Positions 16,747 through 20,496 of a DNA stretch of 64,000 nucleotides are shown here, piece after piece. Position 1 is the first letter of the stretch; each line of letters starts with the position of its first letter. This DNA is from Pseudorhodoferax sp. Leaf274 (GTDB taxonomy: Bacteria > Pseudomonadota > Gammaproteobacteria > Burkholderiales > Burkholderiaceae_C), in the NCBI RefSeq assembly GCF_001422445.1, contig NZ_LMNA01000023.1:62001-126000 (forward strand), read 5' to 3'. The notes beneath the pieces were generated by a model, which was not told where the DNA came from, did no database searches, and saw only the letters and a list, made by a program, of their open reading frames with translations. The position numbers and the translations under genes are program-made.

Positions 16747-17713
16747 TGCCCTGCGCCTGGATCACGCCGCCGAGCAGCGCCGTGTCCAAGCGCATGCGGT
16801 TGGCCAGGCCTTCGGGCGCGGTGCCGGCCACCTGCCAGCCTTGTTGGAACAGGCGCTCGCGCATCTCCGGCGCGCGCACGATGTCGCTGACCAGCGCCGA
16901 CAGCCGGGCCACGATGGGGCGCGGCATCGAGGCGGGGGCGGCCACGGCATTCCAGATCTCCAGCTGGAAACCGGGCACGCCGGCTTCGGCGAGGCTGGGC
17001 AGTTCGGGCACCAGCGGGCTGCGGCCGGTCGAGGTCACGCCGACAGCCTGCAGCTTGCCCGCGCGCACCTGGGCCATGGCCAGCGCCGGCGGCAGCAGCG
17101 CCATCTGCACCTGTCCGCTGATCATGGCCGTGATGACCTGGGGGTTGCCGGGGTAGGGCACGTGCACCGGTGCGATGCCGCTCCTGGACTTGAGCAGTTC
17201 GGTGCCGATGTGCGCGACGGTGCCCACGCCGGGCGTGCCGTAGTTCCACTGGCTGCCGCCGGCTCGCGCCGCAGTGAGAAATTCGGTGACGGAGCGGGCC
17301 GGCACATCCGGCGCGGCGGCCAGTACCAGCGGTGCCGTGCCCAACAGGCTGACCGGCGCCAGGTCGCGCGCGGGGTCGTACGGCGTCTTCGGATTCAGCA
17401 GCCTGGCAATGGTCAGGTTGCCGTTGATCATGAGGCCGATGGTGTGTTCGTCCGTGGCCTTGGCCACGAGGTCGGCCGCGATGTTGCCGCCTGCGCCTGC
17501 GCGGTTGTCGACGATGACCGGCTGACCCAGTGCCCGCGACAGCGGCTCCGCCAGCGCACGCGCGGTCAGGTCGGGCGATGAGCCACCCGGAAAGCCCACC
17601 AGGATGCGCACGGGCCTGGTTGGCCAGGTGTTGCCCTGGGCGCTGGCCCAGATCGGCGTCAGGCTGGCCACCGCGCTGGCGAGCACGGTGCGGCGGGGCA
17701 GGCGGTGGGGCAT
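16733..17713 (-). CDS. Bug-family tripartite tricarboxylate transporter substrate-binding protein
   Basis: 326-residue periplasmic binding protein. A Tat/Sec-like signal (PHRLPRRTVLASAVASLTPIWASAQG) is followed by the family hallmarks WPTRPVRILVGFPGGSSPDLTARALAEPLS and VIVDNRAGAGGNIAADLVA. GTPGVGTVAHIGTELL and AGKLQAVGVTSTGRSPLVPELPSLAEAGVPGF complete the pattern, the two lists covering residues from about 28 to 240. These receptors bind small carboxylates. They are hugely expanded in Burkholderiales, often without linked TctAB membrane subunits, as here. The ligand cannot be predicted. Confidence 0.9.
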   Translation of the reverse strand: MPHRLPRRTVLASAVASLTPIWASAQGNTWPTRPVRILVGFPGGSSPDLTARALAEPLSRALGQPVIVDNRAGAGGNIAADLVAKATDEHTIGLMINGNLTIARLLNPKTPYDPARDLAPVSLLGTAPLVLAAAPDVPARSVTEFLTAARAGGSQWNYGTPGVGTVAHIGTELLKSRSGIAPVHVPYPGNPQVITAMISGQVQMALLPPALAMAQVRAGKLQAVGVTSTGRSPLVPELPSLAEAGVPGFQLEIWNAVAAPASMPRPIVARLSALVSDIVRAPEMRERLFQQGWQVAGTAPEGLANRMRLDTALLGGVIQAQGIKAE

Positions 17714-17757
17714 GTCGTCCTCTTCACGTCGTCTTCTTCACGGTTGCCCCGCACAGC

Positions 17758-17785
17758 AAAACGCCAGCGCGTGCGCTGGCGTTTT
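17758..17785 (-). terminator. Rho-independent terminator after rpoH
   Basis: AAAACGCCAGCGC, two bases, then GCGCTGGCGTTTT form a perfect 13-base inverted repeat with an A-run on one side and a T-run on the other. Read on the minus strand it begins 19 bases after the rpoH stop and ends rpoH transcription before the Bug-type gene. Its symmetry means it would also stop transcription on the plus strand. Confidence 0.88.
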
Positions 17786-17804
17786 GCGGGAGAAGGGCGG
17801 GGGG

Positions 17805-18740
17805 TCAGGCGTAGTATGCCAGCGCCTTCTTCATCTTCTTCATGGCGGACGATTCGATCTGGCGGATGCGCTCGGCGCTCACCCCGTAGTCGGCCGCCAG
17901 CTCATGCAGCGTCATGCCGCCCGAACCGTCGTCGTTGACCTTGAGCCAACGCTCCTCGACGATGCGCCGGCTGCGCGGGTCCAGTTCGGCCAAGGCCGTG
18001 CTGATGCCGTCGCTGGCCAGCCGGTCGCGCTGGCGCGACTCGATCAGGGCCGTCGGCTCCTGCTTGGCGTCGGCCAGGTAGGCGATCGGGCCGTAGCTGT
18101 CCTCGCCGTCGTCGGACGGGCCAGGATCGAGCATCACGTCACCGCCAGACAGGCGGGCCTCCATCTCGATCACTTCCTCGCGCTTCACGTTGAGCTGCTC
18201 GGCCATGGACGAAATCTCGCCCTCGCTGAGCGTGTCGCGGTGGGTGGAGCCGTCGGCCGCGTCGGCCTTGAAGCCCTGCTTCATCGAGCGCAGGTTGAAG
18301 AACAGCTTGCGCTGGGCCTTGGTGGTCGCCACCTTGACCATGCGCCAGTTCTTCAGGATGTACTCGTGCATCTCGGCCTTGATCCAGTGCAGCGCGTAGC
18401 TGACCAGGCGCACACCCTGGTCGGGGTCGAAGCGCTTGACGGCCTTCATGAGTCCCACGTTGCCTTCCTGGATCAGGTCGCCATGCGGCAGGCCATAGCC
18501 CAGGTACTGGCGGGCCACGGACACCACCAGGCGCAGATGCGACAGCACCAGCTTTCCTGCGGCTTCCAAATCGTTGTCATTCTTGAGCTTGCGCGCGTAC
18601 TCCTGCTCCTGCTCGACCGTGAGCATGGGCATGCGGTTGACCGCGGAGATGTACGCGTCCAGGTTGCCCAGCGGGGGGACCAGCGACCATGGGTTCGCCG
18701 TGGCAAGCGCAACGGACGTGGTTCCAGTTTGAAAACTCAT
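17805..18740 (-). CDS. rpoH: RNA polymerase sigma-32 factor (heat shock)
   Basis: 311-residue sigma factor. Region 2 holds LVLSHLRLVVSVARQYLGYGLPHGDLIQEGNVGLMKAVKRFDP in pieces typical of sigma-70 family core binding. The RpoH box QRKLFFNLRSMK at about 143-154 is the signature separating sigma-32 from other sigmas. Region 4.2 ends the protein with the helix-turn-helix TLHELAADYGVSAERIRQIE. The ribosome site AAGGAAAGGA lies 9 bases before the ATG. A perfect CIRCE element overlaps the promoter, so HrcA should repress this gene directly. A terminator follows. Confidence 0.97.
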   Translation of the reverse strand: MSFQTGTTSVALATANPWSLVPPLGNLDAYISAVNRMPMLTVEQEQEYARKLKNDNDLEAAGKLVLSHLRLVVSVARQYLGYGLPHGDLIQEGNVGLMKAVKRFDPDQGVRLVSYALHWIKAEMHEYILKNWRMVKVATTKAQRKLFFNLRSMKQGFKADAADGSTHRDTLSEGEISSMAEQLNVKREEVIEMEARLSGGDVMLDPGPSDDGEDSYGPIAYLADAKQEPTALIESRQRDRLASDGISTALAELDPRSRRIVEERWLKVNDDGSGGMTLHELAADYGVSAERIRQIESSAMKKMKKALAYYA

Positions 18741-18764
18741 ACCAGATTCCTTTCCTTCGGGGAA

Positions 18765-18794
18765 ATATTAGCACTCTCCGGTGGTGAGTGCTAA
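18765..18794 (-). promoter_or_regulatory. Likely rpoH promoter overlapped by CIRCE
   Basis: Read on the minus strand, TTAGCA (18794-18789) and TAATAT (18770-18765) are spaced by 18 bases. They match the -35 (4 of 6) and -10 (5 of 6) boxes. The start would fall about 25 bases ahead of the rpoH ATG. The CIRCE element covers the -35 box and the whole spacer and abuts the -10 box, the arrangement expected for repression by HrcA. Confidence 0.5.
18768..18794 (-). promoter_or_regulatory. CIRCE element (HrcA operator) upstream of rpoH
   Basis: TTAGCACTC, nine bases, GAGTGCTAA: both arms match the CIRCE consensus at all nine positions, and the 9-base spacer is exact. CIRCE is the operator of HrcA, the repressor of groESL and sometimes dnaK. 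Here it lies 28 bases ahead of the rpoH start codon, so HrcA would control the heat-shock sigma factor itself. No hrcA or groE gene is in the window. Confidence 0.95.
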
Positions 18795-18814
18795 AGGGCG
18801 CCTTCTGCGCCCTT
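18794..18814 (-). terminator. Hairpin terminator after the metallo-hydrolase gene
   Basis: AAGGGCGC-loop of five-GCGCCCTT forms a perfect 8-base stem 81 bases downstream of the stop of the minus-strand hydrolase. On that strand it is followed by only a short T-stretch that runs into the CIRCE element. It probably separates the hydrolase transcript from rpoH, though the weak T-tail makes termination incomplete. Confidence 0.55.
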
Positions 18815-18895
18815 GGTGGGGGTGTGGATACCCCGTTTCACATCCCATTGGATGCATGCAGGGGCCCCAAGGTTCCCGCTGGGCTGCAGGGGCGA

Positions 18896-19954
18896 CTAAG
18901 CCGGCGCGAACCGGTAGACGCCGTCGTCTCCGCGCTGGCGCTGCAGCTTTCCGTCGAACCACAGCTTGTGCAGATGCGCCACGGCCTCGCCCATCGCGAA
19001 CGTCGTCTGGTGCAGGTCCAGCTTGCGCGTGAACAAAACGGGCAGGAGGTCGGCGCCGGTGCGCGGGCCCAGCGTGCTGCAGGCTTCCATGACGCGCTCC
19101 AGGTGCTGGCGGTGGTGTCCGTGCAACTGCTCGATGCGGGTGTGCAGGCCCCGGAACGGCTTGCCGTGCGCCGGCAGCGTCAAGGTGTCCGGCGCCAGCG
19201 CCCGGAACTTGTCGATGGAGTCCAGGAACAGCTGCAGCGCGTTGGCCTCGGGCTCGTTGTCGTAGACGCTGACGTTGGTCGAGATGCGCGGCAGCATCAT
19301 GTCGCCGCCGACCAGCACGGCGGCCTGCTCGCAGTACAGCGCGATGTGTTCCGGTGCGTGGCCATACCCGCTGATGCAGCGCCATTCGCGCCCGCCGATG
19401 CGCAGCCGCATGCCGTCCAGCAGGCGGATGTACTGGCGCGGCACGTCGGGCACCATGCTGGCGTAGTAGTTCGTGCGGCCGCGCACCTGTTGCAGCGCTT
19501 CCGGGTCGGCCAGGCCATGGCTGCGGAAGAAGTCAGCGGCCGCTTCGCCTCCGTTGCCGCTGGTGCCTTGGGTGTTGAGCCGGGCCACGTGGTAGTCGGT
19601 GGCGCTGATCCACAGCGGGGCGTTCCAGCGCGTGCAGAGCCAGTGCGCCAAGCCAATGTGGTCCGGGTGCATGTGCGTGACGACCACGCGCAGGATCGGC
19701 AGGCCTTCCAGCTGCGTGGCAAAAACCTCTTCCCACTGGGCCTTGGCCTCGTCGCGCGCGATGCAGCAATCCACCACCGTCCAGCCGGCACGGCCGTCGA
19801 TCTCGTCGCGCAGCAGCCACAGGTTGATGTGGTCCAGCGCGAACGGCAAAGCCATGCGGATCCAGCGGATGCCGGGCGCCACCTCCAGCGTCCCGCCCGG
19901 CTCCGGCATCTGGTCGCCGAACGGGTAGTGCAGCTGGCTTTCGAGTGCGTTCAT
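18896..19954 (-). CDS. Metallo-beta-lactamase-fold hydrolase
   Basis: 352-residue protein. The metal site motif THMHPDHIGLAHW (HxHxDH) lies at about 118-130. Further ligands are expected in GYGHAPEHIALY and in the C-terminal PAHGKPF. A winged-helix-like C-terminal region follows, as in LACTB2/glyoxalase II-like proteins. The frame is open further upstream, but MNALESQLHYPFGDQ is the natural start. The gene is divergent from a MerR regulator and shares its operator region, so it probably belongs to the same acyl-CoA regulon. The thioester or lactone substrate is not known. Confidence 0.85.
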   Translation of the reverse strand: MNALESQLHYPFGDQMPEPGGTLEVAPGIRWIRMALPFALDHINLWLLRDEIDGRAGWTVVDCCIARDEAKAQWEEVFATQLEGLPILRVVVTHMHPDHIGLAHWLCTRWNAPLWISATDYHVARLNTQGTSGNGGEAAADFFRSHGLADPEALQQVRGRTNYYASMVPDVPRQYIRLLDGMRLRIGGREWRCISGYGHAPEHIALYCEQAAVLVGGDMMLPRISTNVSVYDNEPEANALQLFLDSIDKFRALAPDTLTLPAHGKPFRGLHTRIEQLHGHHRQHLERVMEACSTLGPRTGADLLPVLFTRKLDLHQTTFAMGEAVAHLHKLWFDGKLQRQRGDDGVYRFAPA

Positions 19955-19973
19955 GGGGTGTCTGCCGGTTGGG

Positions 19974-20002
19974 TTGACGTTGACGTAAACGTCATCTGTA
20001 AT
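19974..20002 (+). promoter_or_regulatory. MerR-type promoter/operator between the metallo-hydrolase and regulator genes
   Basis: TTGACG (19974-19979) and TGTAAT (19997-20002) are good -35 and -10 boxes exactly 17 bases apart. A near-palindrome of TTGACG, TTGACGTAAACG and TCAT at 19974-19995 fills the -35 and spacer region. It matches the second operator at 20508-20529 in 20 of 22 positions. Placement inside the spacer is characteristic of MerR-family control. It sits ahead of the regulator gene, implying autoregulation, and could also control the divergent hydrolase. Confidence 0.75.
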
Positions 20003-20061
20003 CCGGCGGCATTCTAGGAATGCGCCCGCCATTTCGCCTGTCACCTCCGTATTGCCTGCCG

Positions 20062-20496
20062 ATGACCACCGCTGCCCCTTGCTCCCCGCCGTCCGACGAG
20101 ATGGCCGCCGACGCCGGCACCTACAGCATCGGCGATCTCGCGCGCGAGTTCGACCTGACGACCCGTGCCATCCGTTTCTACGAAGACATGGGACTGCTGC
20201 AGCCGCAGCGCAGCGGACCGGGCGGCCGCGTCCGGGTTTACGGCGCGCGCGACCGCACCCGCCTGAAGCTGACCCTGCGCGCCAAACGCCTGGGCCTGTC
20301 GCTCAACGAGGCCCGCGAGATCCTGGACATGTACGACAGCCCGCGCGACACCGGCCCCCAGTTGCGCAAGTTCCTCGACGTGCTGGCCGCGCACCGCCAG
20401 GCCCTCGAAGCCCAGTTGACCGAACTGCACGCCAACCTCGAAGAGGTCAAGGCGCATGAGCGCGAAGCGCGCGCGCTGCTGGCACGCAGCCGCTGA
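20062..20496 (+). CDS. MerR-family transcriptional regulator, LiuR-like
   Basis: 144-residue regulator. The winged helix-turn-helix is at about 18-85: YSIGDLAREFDLTTRAIRFYEDMGLL, then RVRVYGARDRTRLKLTLRAKRLGLSL. A coiled-coil dimer helix follows (LRKFLDVLAAHRQALEAQLTEL). It lacks the cysteines of metal-sensing MerR proteins. N-terminal sequence and gene neighbourhood resemble LiuR, which governs leucine and isovalerate or short acyl-CoA catabolism in proteobacteria. Two palindromic sites, one before this gene and one before the thioesterase, are its likely operators. The ATG at 20101 is an alternative start 13 codons later. Confidence 0.85.
   Translation: MTTAAPCSPPSDEMAADAGTYSIGDLAREFDLTTRAIRFYEDMGLLQPQRSGPGGRVRVYGARDRTRLKLTLRAKRLGLSLNEAREILDMYDSPRDTGPQLRKFLDVLAAHRQALEAQLTELHANLEEVKAHEREARALLARSR

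Follow-up and report, generated by a model that had tools for sequence, protein, structure and literature searches.

The HrcA/CIRCE and sigma-32 heat-shock systems have mostly been described as separate or parallel, and the locus analysed here raises the question of whether HrcA controls the gene for sigma-32 itself. In the 64,000-nucleotide stretch of DNA that was analysed (the window), the initial annotation had placed a perfect CIRCE element over the rpoH promoter and proposed that HrcA would repress the sigma factor gene, wiring the two systems in series. The gene was identified as rpoH by a score above the cut-off of the equivalog model TIGR02392 together with sigma-70 regions 2 and 4; the product has sigma-70 regions 1.2, 2 and 4 and matched both PF04542 and PF04545. 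RpoH of Pseudorhodoferax sp. Leaf265 was the closest named relative of this protein (96%), which places the host near Pseudorhodoferax (Comamonadaceae). The upstream neighbour on the same strand encodes a metallo-beta-lactamase-fold hydrolase (18896-20044), and the 155-base gap from rpoH to the hydrolase gene contains the CIRCE and all promoter candidates (Table 1).

A scan of the whole window with the consensus TTAGCACTC-N9-GAGTGCTAA, as printed in PMC545781, gave a single match at up to 3 mismatches (18768-18794), and at the same threshold a CIRCE was found in 0/100 dinucleotide shuffles of the window. The perfect element claimed ahead of rpoH was therefore borne out, with 0 mismatches against 0/100 shuffles. 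The interval first given for it, 18765-18794, does contain the CIRCE, which itself covers only the 27 bases 18768-18794; the three extra bases (ATA on the plus strand, TAT in the direction of rpoH) are part of a conserved unit. Likewise, the close spacing to rpoH stood, with the distance of 28 bases now counted as 27 between the CIRCE and the start codon (ATG 18738-18740, minus strand). The site agrees with the consensus, lies near a heat-shock gene in a genome with hrcA and is kept in relatives, the marks by which we call it a CIRCE.

Table 1. Features at the rpoH locus of the window
Feature	Coordinates	Strand	Details
rpoH, sigma-32, 311 aa	17805..18740	-	TIGR02392, 393 bits, cut-off 323.1
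Shine-Dalgarno-like stretch GAAGGAAAGGAA before the rpoH ATG	18747..18758	-	read by eye
Candidate extended -10 TGCTAATAT (TGC + TAATAT)	18765..18773	-	CIRCE right arm + TAT
CIRCE (HrcA operator)	18768..18794	.	perfect TTAGCACTC-N9-GAGTGCTAA, 0 mismatches
Candidate -35 TTAGCA in the CIRCE left arm	18789..18794	-	inferred; 4/6 to TTGACA, 18-bp spacer to TAATAT
Inverted repeat AAGGGCGC/GCGCCCTT, abutting the CIRCE	18794..18814	.	perfect, 8 bp, loop 5
Sigma-E-like promoter GGAACCT-N17-TCCAA	18848..18876	-	10/12

The genome was then checked for hrcA, the absence of which would have counted against this reading, and for further CIRCE copies. One hrcA was present in the 6.74-Mb genome (PF01628, 217.4 bits, cut-off 22.2); by eye, the gene beside it looks like nadK. 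Scanning the genome at up to 3 mismatches gave two perfect CIRCEs, at rpoH and at G000:C2:105842, and one site with 3 mismatches, and at up to 2 mismatches the two CIRCEs at groESL and rpoH. The second perfect copy was found where expected, before groESL. Because these two are the only CIRCEs within 2 mismatches, the remaining genes, among them hrcA, have none at this threshold. The candidate third CIRCE was rejected, being just a palindrome with 3 mismatches ahead of a gene that resembles a regulator, and was taken as the site of another protein. It lies at L003 1501-1527 (G000:C27:271494-271520), directly before a gene that is MarR-type-like by eye, and is probably the operator of that regulator itself. 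CIRCE copies were also counted in 54 genomes, with places known among the matches listed. Two copies within 2 mismatches were found in 20/20 of the family genomes counted. The search for groES covered 30 family genomes, including those 20, and in 30/30 the gene was preceded by a CIRCE at this threshold.

To determine how widespread the CIRCE at rpoH is, the rpoH upstream regions of related genera were compared, and it was found that these carry the element as well. Among 80 named rpoH loci, 79 had a CIRCE with 0-2 mismatches (70 perfect, 8 with one mismatch and 1 with two), the other locus (L046) having six. The family sample of 100 genomes gave 102 rows, of which 101 were examined, a fragment beginning at residue 140 (G097:C108) being left out. 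A CIRCE was present in 100/101 (75 perfect, 22 with one mismatch and 3 with two), and the miss (L117, 63 bases long) is due to the end of the contig. The order sample of 60 genomes gave 58 rows beside the host's own genome, all examined: 50 had 0-2 mismatches, 2 had four and 6 had five or more. Two of the 60 genomes gave no rpoH match, and both have hrcA. Loci L204-L231 (28) were counted in a further sample, from which rows without a locus were left out.

The presence of hrcA was sought in the host's own genome and 80 others, among them part of the family sample. In the order sample, a CIRCE with 0-2 mismatches stood at rpoH in 49/51 genomes with hrcA, the other two having four mismatches, and in 0/6 genomes lacking hrcA (Fisher 8e-7); because the rows share ancestry, this and the other p-values overstate the case and are only a guide. 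The same six genomes had no CIRCE within 2 mismatches anywhere in the genome. In 13 genomes from other orders of the class, a CIRCE was found at rpoH in 3/3 with hrcA and 0/10 without it, whereas in other classes of the phylum it was found at 0/15 rpoH loci, though hrcA was present in 8/8 such genomes checked (the class names of part of the sampled genomes being inferred from kinship labels). The contrast of 49/51 and 0/6 within the order, set against 0/15 in other classes, indicates that the predicted CIRCE-rpoH link is widespread in the order and goes with HrcA, but that hrcA alone does not bring it everywhere.

Several individual loci stood out in this comparison. The two order-sample genomes with hrcA and a four-mismatch CIRCE at rpoH, G107 (L179) and G124 (L261), are perhaps cases of decaying sites, which would make them good natural tests of the link. 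One order genome, G145, has two rpoH genes with a CIRCE at both (L258 and L263, 2 and 1 mismatches). L015, a MAG contig labelled Hyphomicrobiaceae, carries a Comamonadaceae-type rpoH (84% identity) with a perfect CIRCE and is possibly misbinned. In L046, a 3.2-kb MAG contig and the sole named locus without a full CIRCE, the left arm TTGGCACTC is kept and the right arm is gone.

The initial annotation had also noted -35/-10-like boxes overlapping the CIRCE. A generic sigma-70 scan of 18500-19000 at 9/12 gave no promoter, whereas comparison across relatives did favour such boxes; as they are weak alone, the case for them is comparative. When columns were anchored on the CIRCE, the flanks were nearly flat, the 18 arm positions were strongly kept and the loop was rather free. 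Just past the right arm, T30 was found at rpoH in 100/100 family and 50/50 order sites (CIRCEs with 0-2 mismatches), compared to 1/30 CIRCEs at groESL. A29 was common at both (96/100 family and 42/50 order sites at rpoH; 25/30 at groESL). Positions 22-30 at rpoH read TGC-TAAnAT, which has the form of an extended -10. The presence of T30 in 150/150 sites at rpoH versus 1/30 at groESL suggests that the operator and the extended -10 are one piece.

The distribution of mismatches was also compared between the two arms. At rpoH, left- and right-arm mismatches numbered 23:5 in the family, 33:8 in the order and 7:3 in the named set, and this preponderance in the left arm suggests that some constraint beyond HrcA acts on the right arm. 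The ratio at groESL was 9:9, with almost every mismatch at position 1 or 27; the left-arm bias of the family at rpoH differed from groESL with a Fisher value of only 0.047. The commonest mismatch at rpoH was A3 to G (13/28 family, 20/41 order), which turns TTAGCA into TTGGCA, nearer to TTGACA. The candidate -35 itself is poor by sequence. Overall, the CIRCE at rpoH appears from these comparisons to be the promoter itself, unlike that at groESL.

A possible sigma-E input was predicted based on the sigma-E promoter motif GGAACTT-N15..17-TCnnA, scored as GGAACTT-N15..17-TC(A/T)(A/G)A with a maximum of 12. Two patterns overlapping the CIRCE were observed. In the order, GGAACTT lies at -15 to -9 and is followed 16 bases on by TCTCA, formed by the end of the left arm and the first loop bases; in the family, GAACTT ends at -5 and TCYAA occupies positions 12-16 within the loop. 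A score of at least 10/12 was reached in 44/100 family and 26/50 order sites, compared to 0.8% and 0.9% in shuffles of the loop and the bases upstream, and a score of at least 9/12 in 51 of 100 and 39 of 50 (shuffles 7% and 9%). None of the groESL CIRCEs (0/30) reached 9/12. In the named set, from which L046 and L047 were dropped as lacking the site or upstream DNA, 58/78 loci reached 10/12, the shuffle comparison covering the family and order samples. Among the 70 family and order sites scoring at least 10/12, the -10 began at CIRCE position 12 (36 sites), 8 (23) or 10 (7) in 66/70.

The rpoE gene was sought in 80 genomes, of which 72 were tabulated, 3 from other orders being unused and 5 having no CIRCE. 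Genomes with a best E above 1e-60 were classed as without a good rpoE match, and 4 just below the model cut-off (224-235 bits) were counted as having rpoE. The nested motif at 9/12 or more was present in 40/65 genomes with rpoE versus 0/7 without a good match (Fisher 0.002, to be read with caution given kinship), and was missing at this threshold in 25/65 genomes with rpoE. The motif in relatives stands at a fixed offset, occurs beyond chance and is tied to rpoE, and about half of the relatives have a predicted sigma-E-type promoter with its -10 inside the CIRCE.

For the window's own CIRCE, a nested sigma-E promoter was rejected at a score of 6/12, and the nested motif was also missing in a genome of the same genus (G062) and in Leaf265. 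The sigma-E-like site found instead lies 53 bases ahead of the CIRCE, and a like box pair occurs at the matching place in G062 (10/12), Pseudorhodoferax sp. Leaf265 (9/12) and Rhodoferax sp. OV413 (10/12, with a perfect GGAACTT), so that the site is seen in four sequences of one clade, with unlike spacers. Sites scoring at least 10/12 elsewhere within 200 bases before the CIRCE were found in 7/49 family members without the nested motif (shuffles 1.8%) and 3/51 with it (shuffles 4.5%). The host genome has rpoE (251.8 bits, cut-off 236.15). A sigma-E-like input is likely kept in the window's genus, judging by these matches, and displaced 53 bases upstream of the CIRCE.

Two further features were observed in the same region. 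The inverted repeat AAGGGCGC/GCGCCCTT occupies the place of the nested sigma-E -35 in relatives, and by eye similar repeats with G-U pairs are present in L086 and L005. A block around TCCACACCCCC and CAAGGGCGCAG (18805-18831, minus strand), between the sigma-E-like site and the CIRCE, is kept in the genus (alignment; L005, L086) and resembles a DnaA box; such boxes are without enrichment elsewhere. A DnaA box before the CIRCE, considered for the TTATCCACA-like stretch in the genus, was rejected for want of a clear excess over shuffles: DnaA-box-like sequences at up to 1 mismatch occurred in 14/100 family (shuffles 9%), 10/50 order (14%) and 14/78 named loci (13%).

These observations could also be read as HrcA acting mainly on sigma-E-driven transcription of rpoH, by occlusion where the two sites overlap and by a block to elongation here, with the TAT as an rpoH-specific contact rather than a -10. 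The nested motif in about half of the relatives and the displaced one in the window are in keeping with such a role, as is in vitro transcription of the region just before rpoH (fam) by SigE of Bordetella bronchiseptica (PMC3490749). However, only 1/30 groESL CIRCEs have the T that follows the right arm at rpoH, which argues against a contact made by HrcA in general. This T is moreover kept in 7/7 genomes where a CIRCE-like site (0-4 mismatches) occurs without a good rpoE match. We therefore regard this reading as unlikely.

The palindrome might instead work as RNA, a CIRCE hairpin in the leader altering the life or translation of the mRNA, and the upstream sigma-E-like site would indeed place the CIRCE within the leader. 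What is conserved, however, is the letters at 18 positions around a free 9-base loop, and the CIRCE is gone where hrcA is gone. Folding of the leader end and first codons (18640-18762, CIRCE excluded) was no better than for shuffles (z +0.9), and Rfam at its gathering score gave no family in 17700-20100; an RNA thermometer in the leader end and first codons was rejected on the same two results. An action as RNA is thus highly improbable. That the palindrome is a functionless relic or a product of chance can practically be dismissed, given 0/100 shuffles and conservation across the order between near-random flanks.

In our preferred reading, which we hold to be very probable from the sequence comparisons, HrcA represses rpoH through an operator that is also the promoter core, and sigma-E adds a second signal. 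The interpretation given in the initial annotation is supported; the analysis adds to it the candidate extended -10 in the right arm, the predicted sigma-E-type promoter over the CIRCE in many relatives and upstream of it here, and the generality of the link in the order. What is observed here is the CIRCE sequence, how it is conserved, its association with hrcA and the constant positions of the promoter-like motifs; we infer HrcA binding at this site, both promoters with their start sites and the order of events. The CIRCE would be a working HrcA operator and the core of the rpoH promoter, a housekeeping promoter with its extended -10 in the right arm plus TAT and a weak -35 in the left arm; HrcA bound to the CIRCE would thus cover both boxes and exclude RNA polymerase. 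The activity of HrcA would depend on the GroE chaperonin, HrcA binding being enhanced by GroESL in Campylobacter (PMC8533110). Upon heat or misfolding, GroE would fill with unfolded protein and HrcA would be released, freeing groESL and rpoH together. The sigma-E-type promoter would provide a second input, for envelope stress; where nested, as in many relatives, it would be occluded by HrcA, and in the window's genus, with its upstream site, HrcA would act as a roadblock to the transcript.

A broader proposal, for and against which we see the chances as evenly balanced, is that rpoH control in Burkholderiales is often a single compact element of about 45 bases. The same letters would there serve the HrcA operator, a housekeeping extended -10 and a sigma-E promoter, whose own -10 lies at the inner edge of the CIRCE or within its 9-base loop. 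Misfolding in the cytoplasm, acting by way of GroE and HrcA, would then gate envelope stress (through sigma-E) at rpoH, which encodes the master heat-shock factor, and the sigma-E part would shift register (-10 at CIRCE position 8, 10 or 12), be lost or move upstream while the CIRCE stays.

Across an order whose members come from soil, water, plants and clinical settings, the two heat-shock systems appear to be connected in series, often with sigma-E acting at that site as a third input, which offers a testable case of one operator and two promoters sharing letters. If this is true, an hrcA mutation in these bacteria should raise the sigma-32 set as a whole, beyond groESL. A CIRCE-rpoH link in this group may also be recorded in a 2003 study of regulons in beta-, gamma- and epsilon-proteobacteria, and in RegPrecise. 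Among the passages on rpoH or CIRCE in the literature searched that names HrcA, CIRCE and rpoH together, a CIRCE before rpoH was mentioned only in PMC545781, where it is predicted for Geobacter sulfurreducens (Rodionov et al. 2004, Table 8). As this prediction is already in print, the HrcA-rpoH link as such is not new. The fusion of the right arm with an extended -10, the sigma-E promoter nested in the CIRCE, its registers and the tie to hrcA were not found in the portions of the literature that the search returned.

Compared with known systems, Geobacter sulfurreducens is similar in having a perfect predicted CIRCE before rpoH (there at -51), a CIRCE at groESL and hrcA in the genome, but differs in that its hrcA-grpE-dnaKJ also has a CIRCE, while the host has only those at groESL and rpoH within 2 mismatches (PMC545781). 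It is given there as a delta-proteobacterium, and the available text mentions no sigma-E promoter at its rpoH site (PMC545781). Escherichia coli rpoHP3 and Bordetella bronchiseptica fam share a sigma-E-type promoter directly before rpoH, in an account whose available part is without mention of HrcA or CIRCE (PMC3490749). E. coli further differs in not being among the control genomes that matched the HrcA profile. In Burkholderia pseudomallei, of the same order, rpoE likewise feeds rpoH through a heat-inducible promoter under its control, in a review whose available part differs in giving neither HrcA nor a place relative to a CIRCE (PMC5994319). Within the same genomes, the groESL CIRCE is the same operator for what is presumably the same repressor. 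It differs in that no TAT comes after it and that in many of the 30 rows it follows a sigma-32-like promoter, CTTGAAA ... CCCTTAT.
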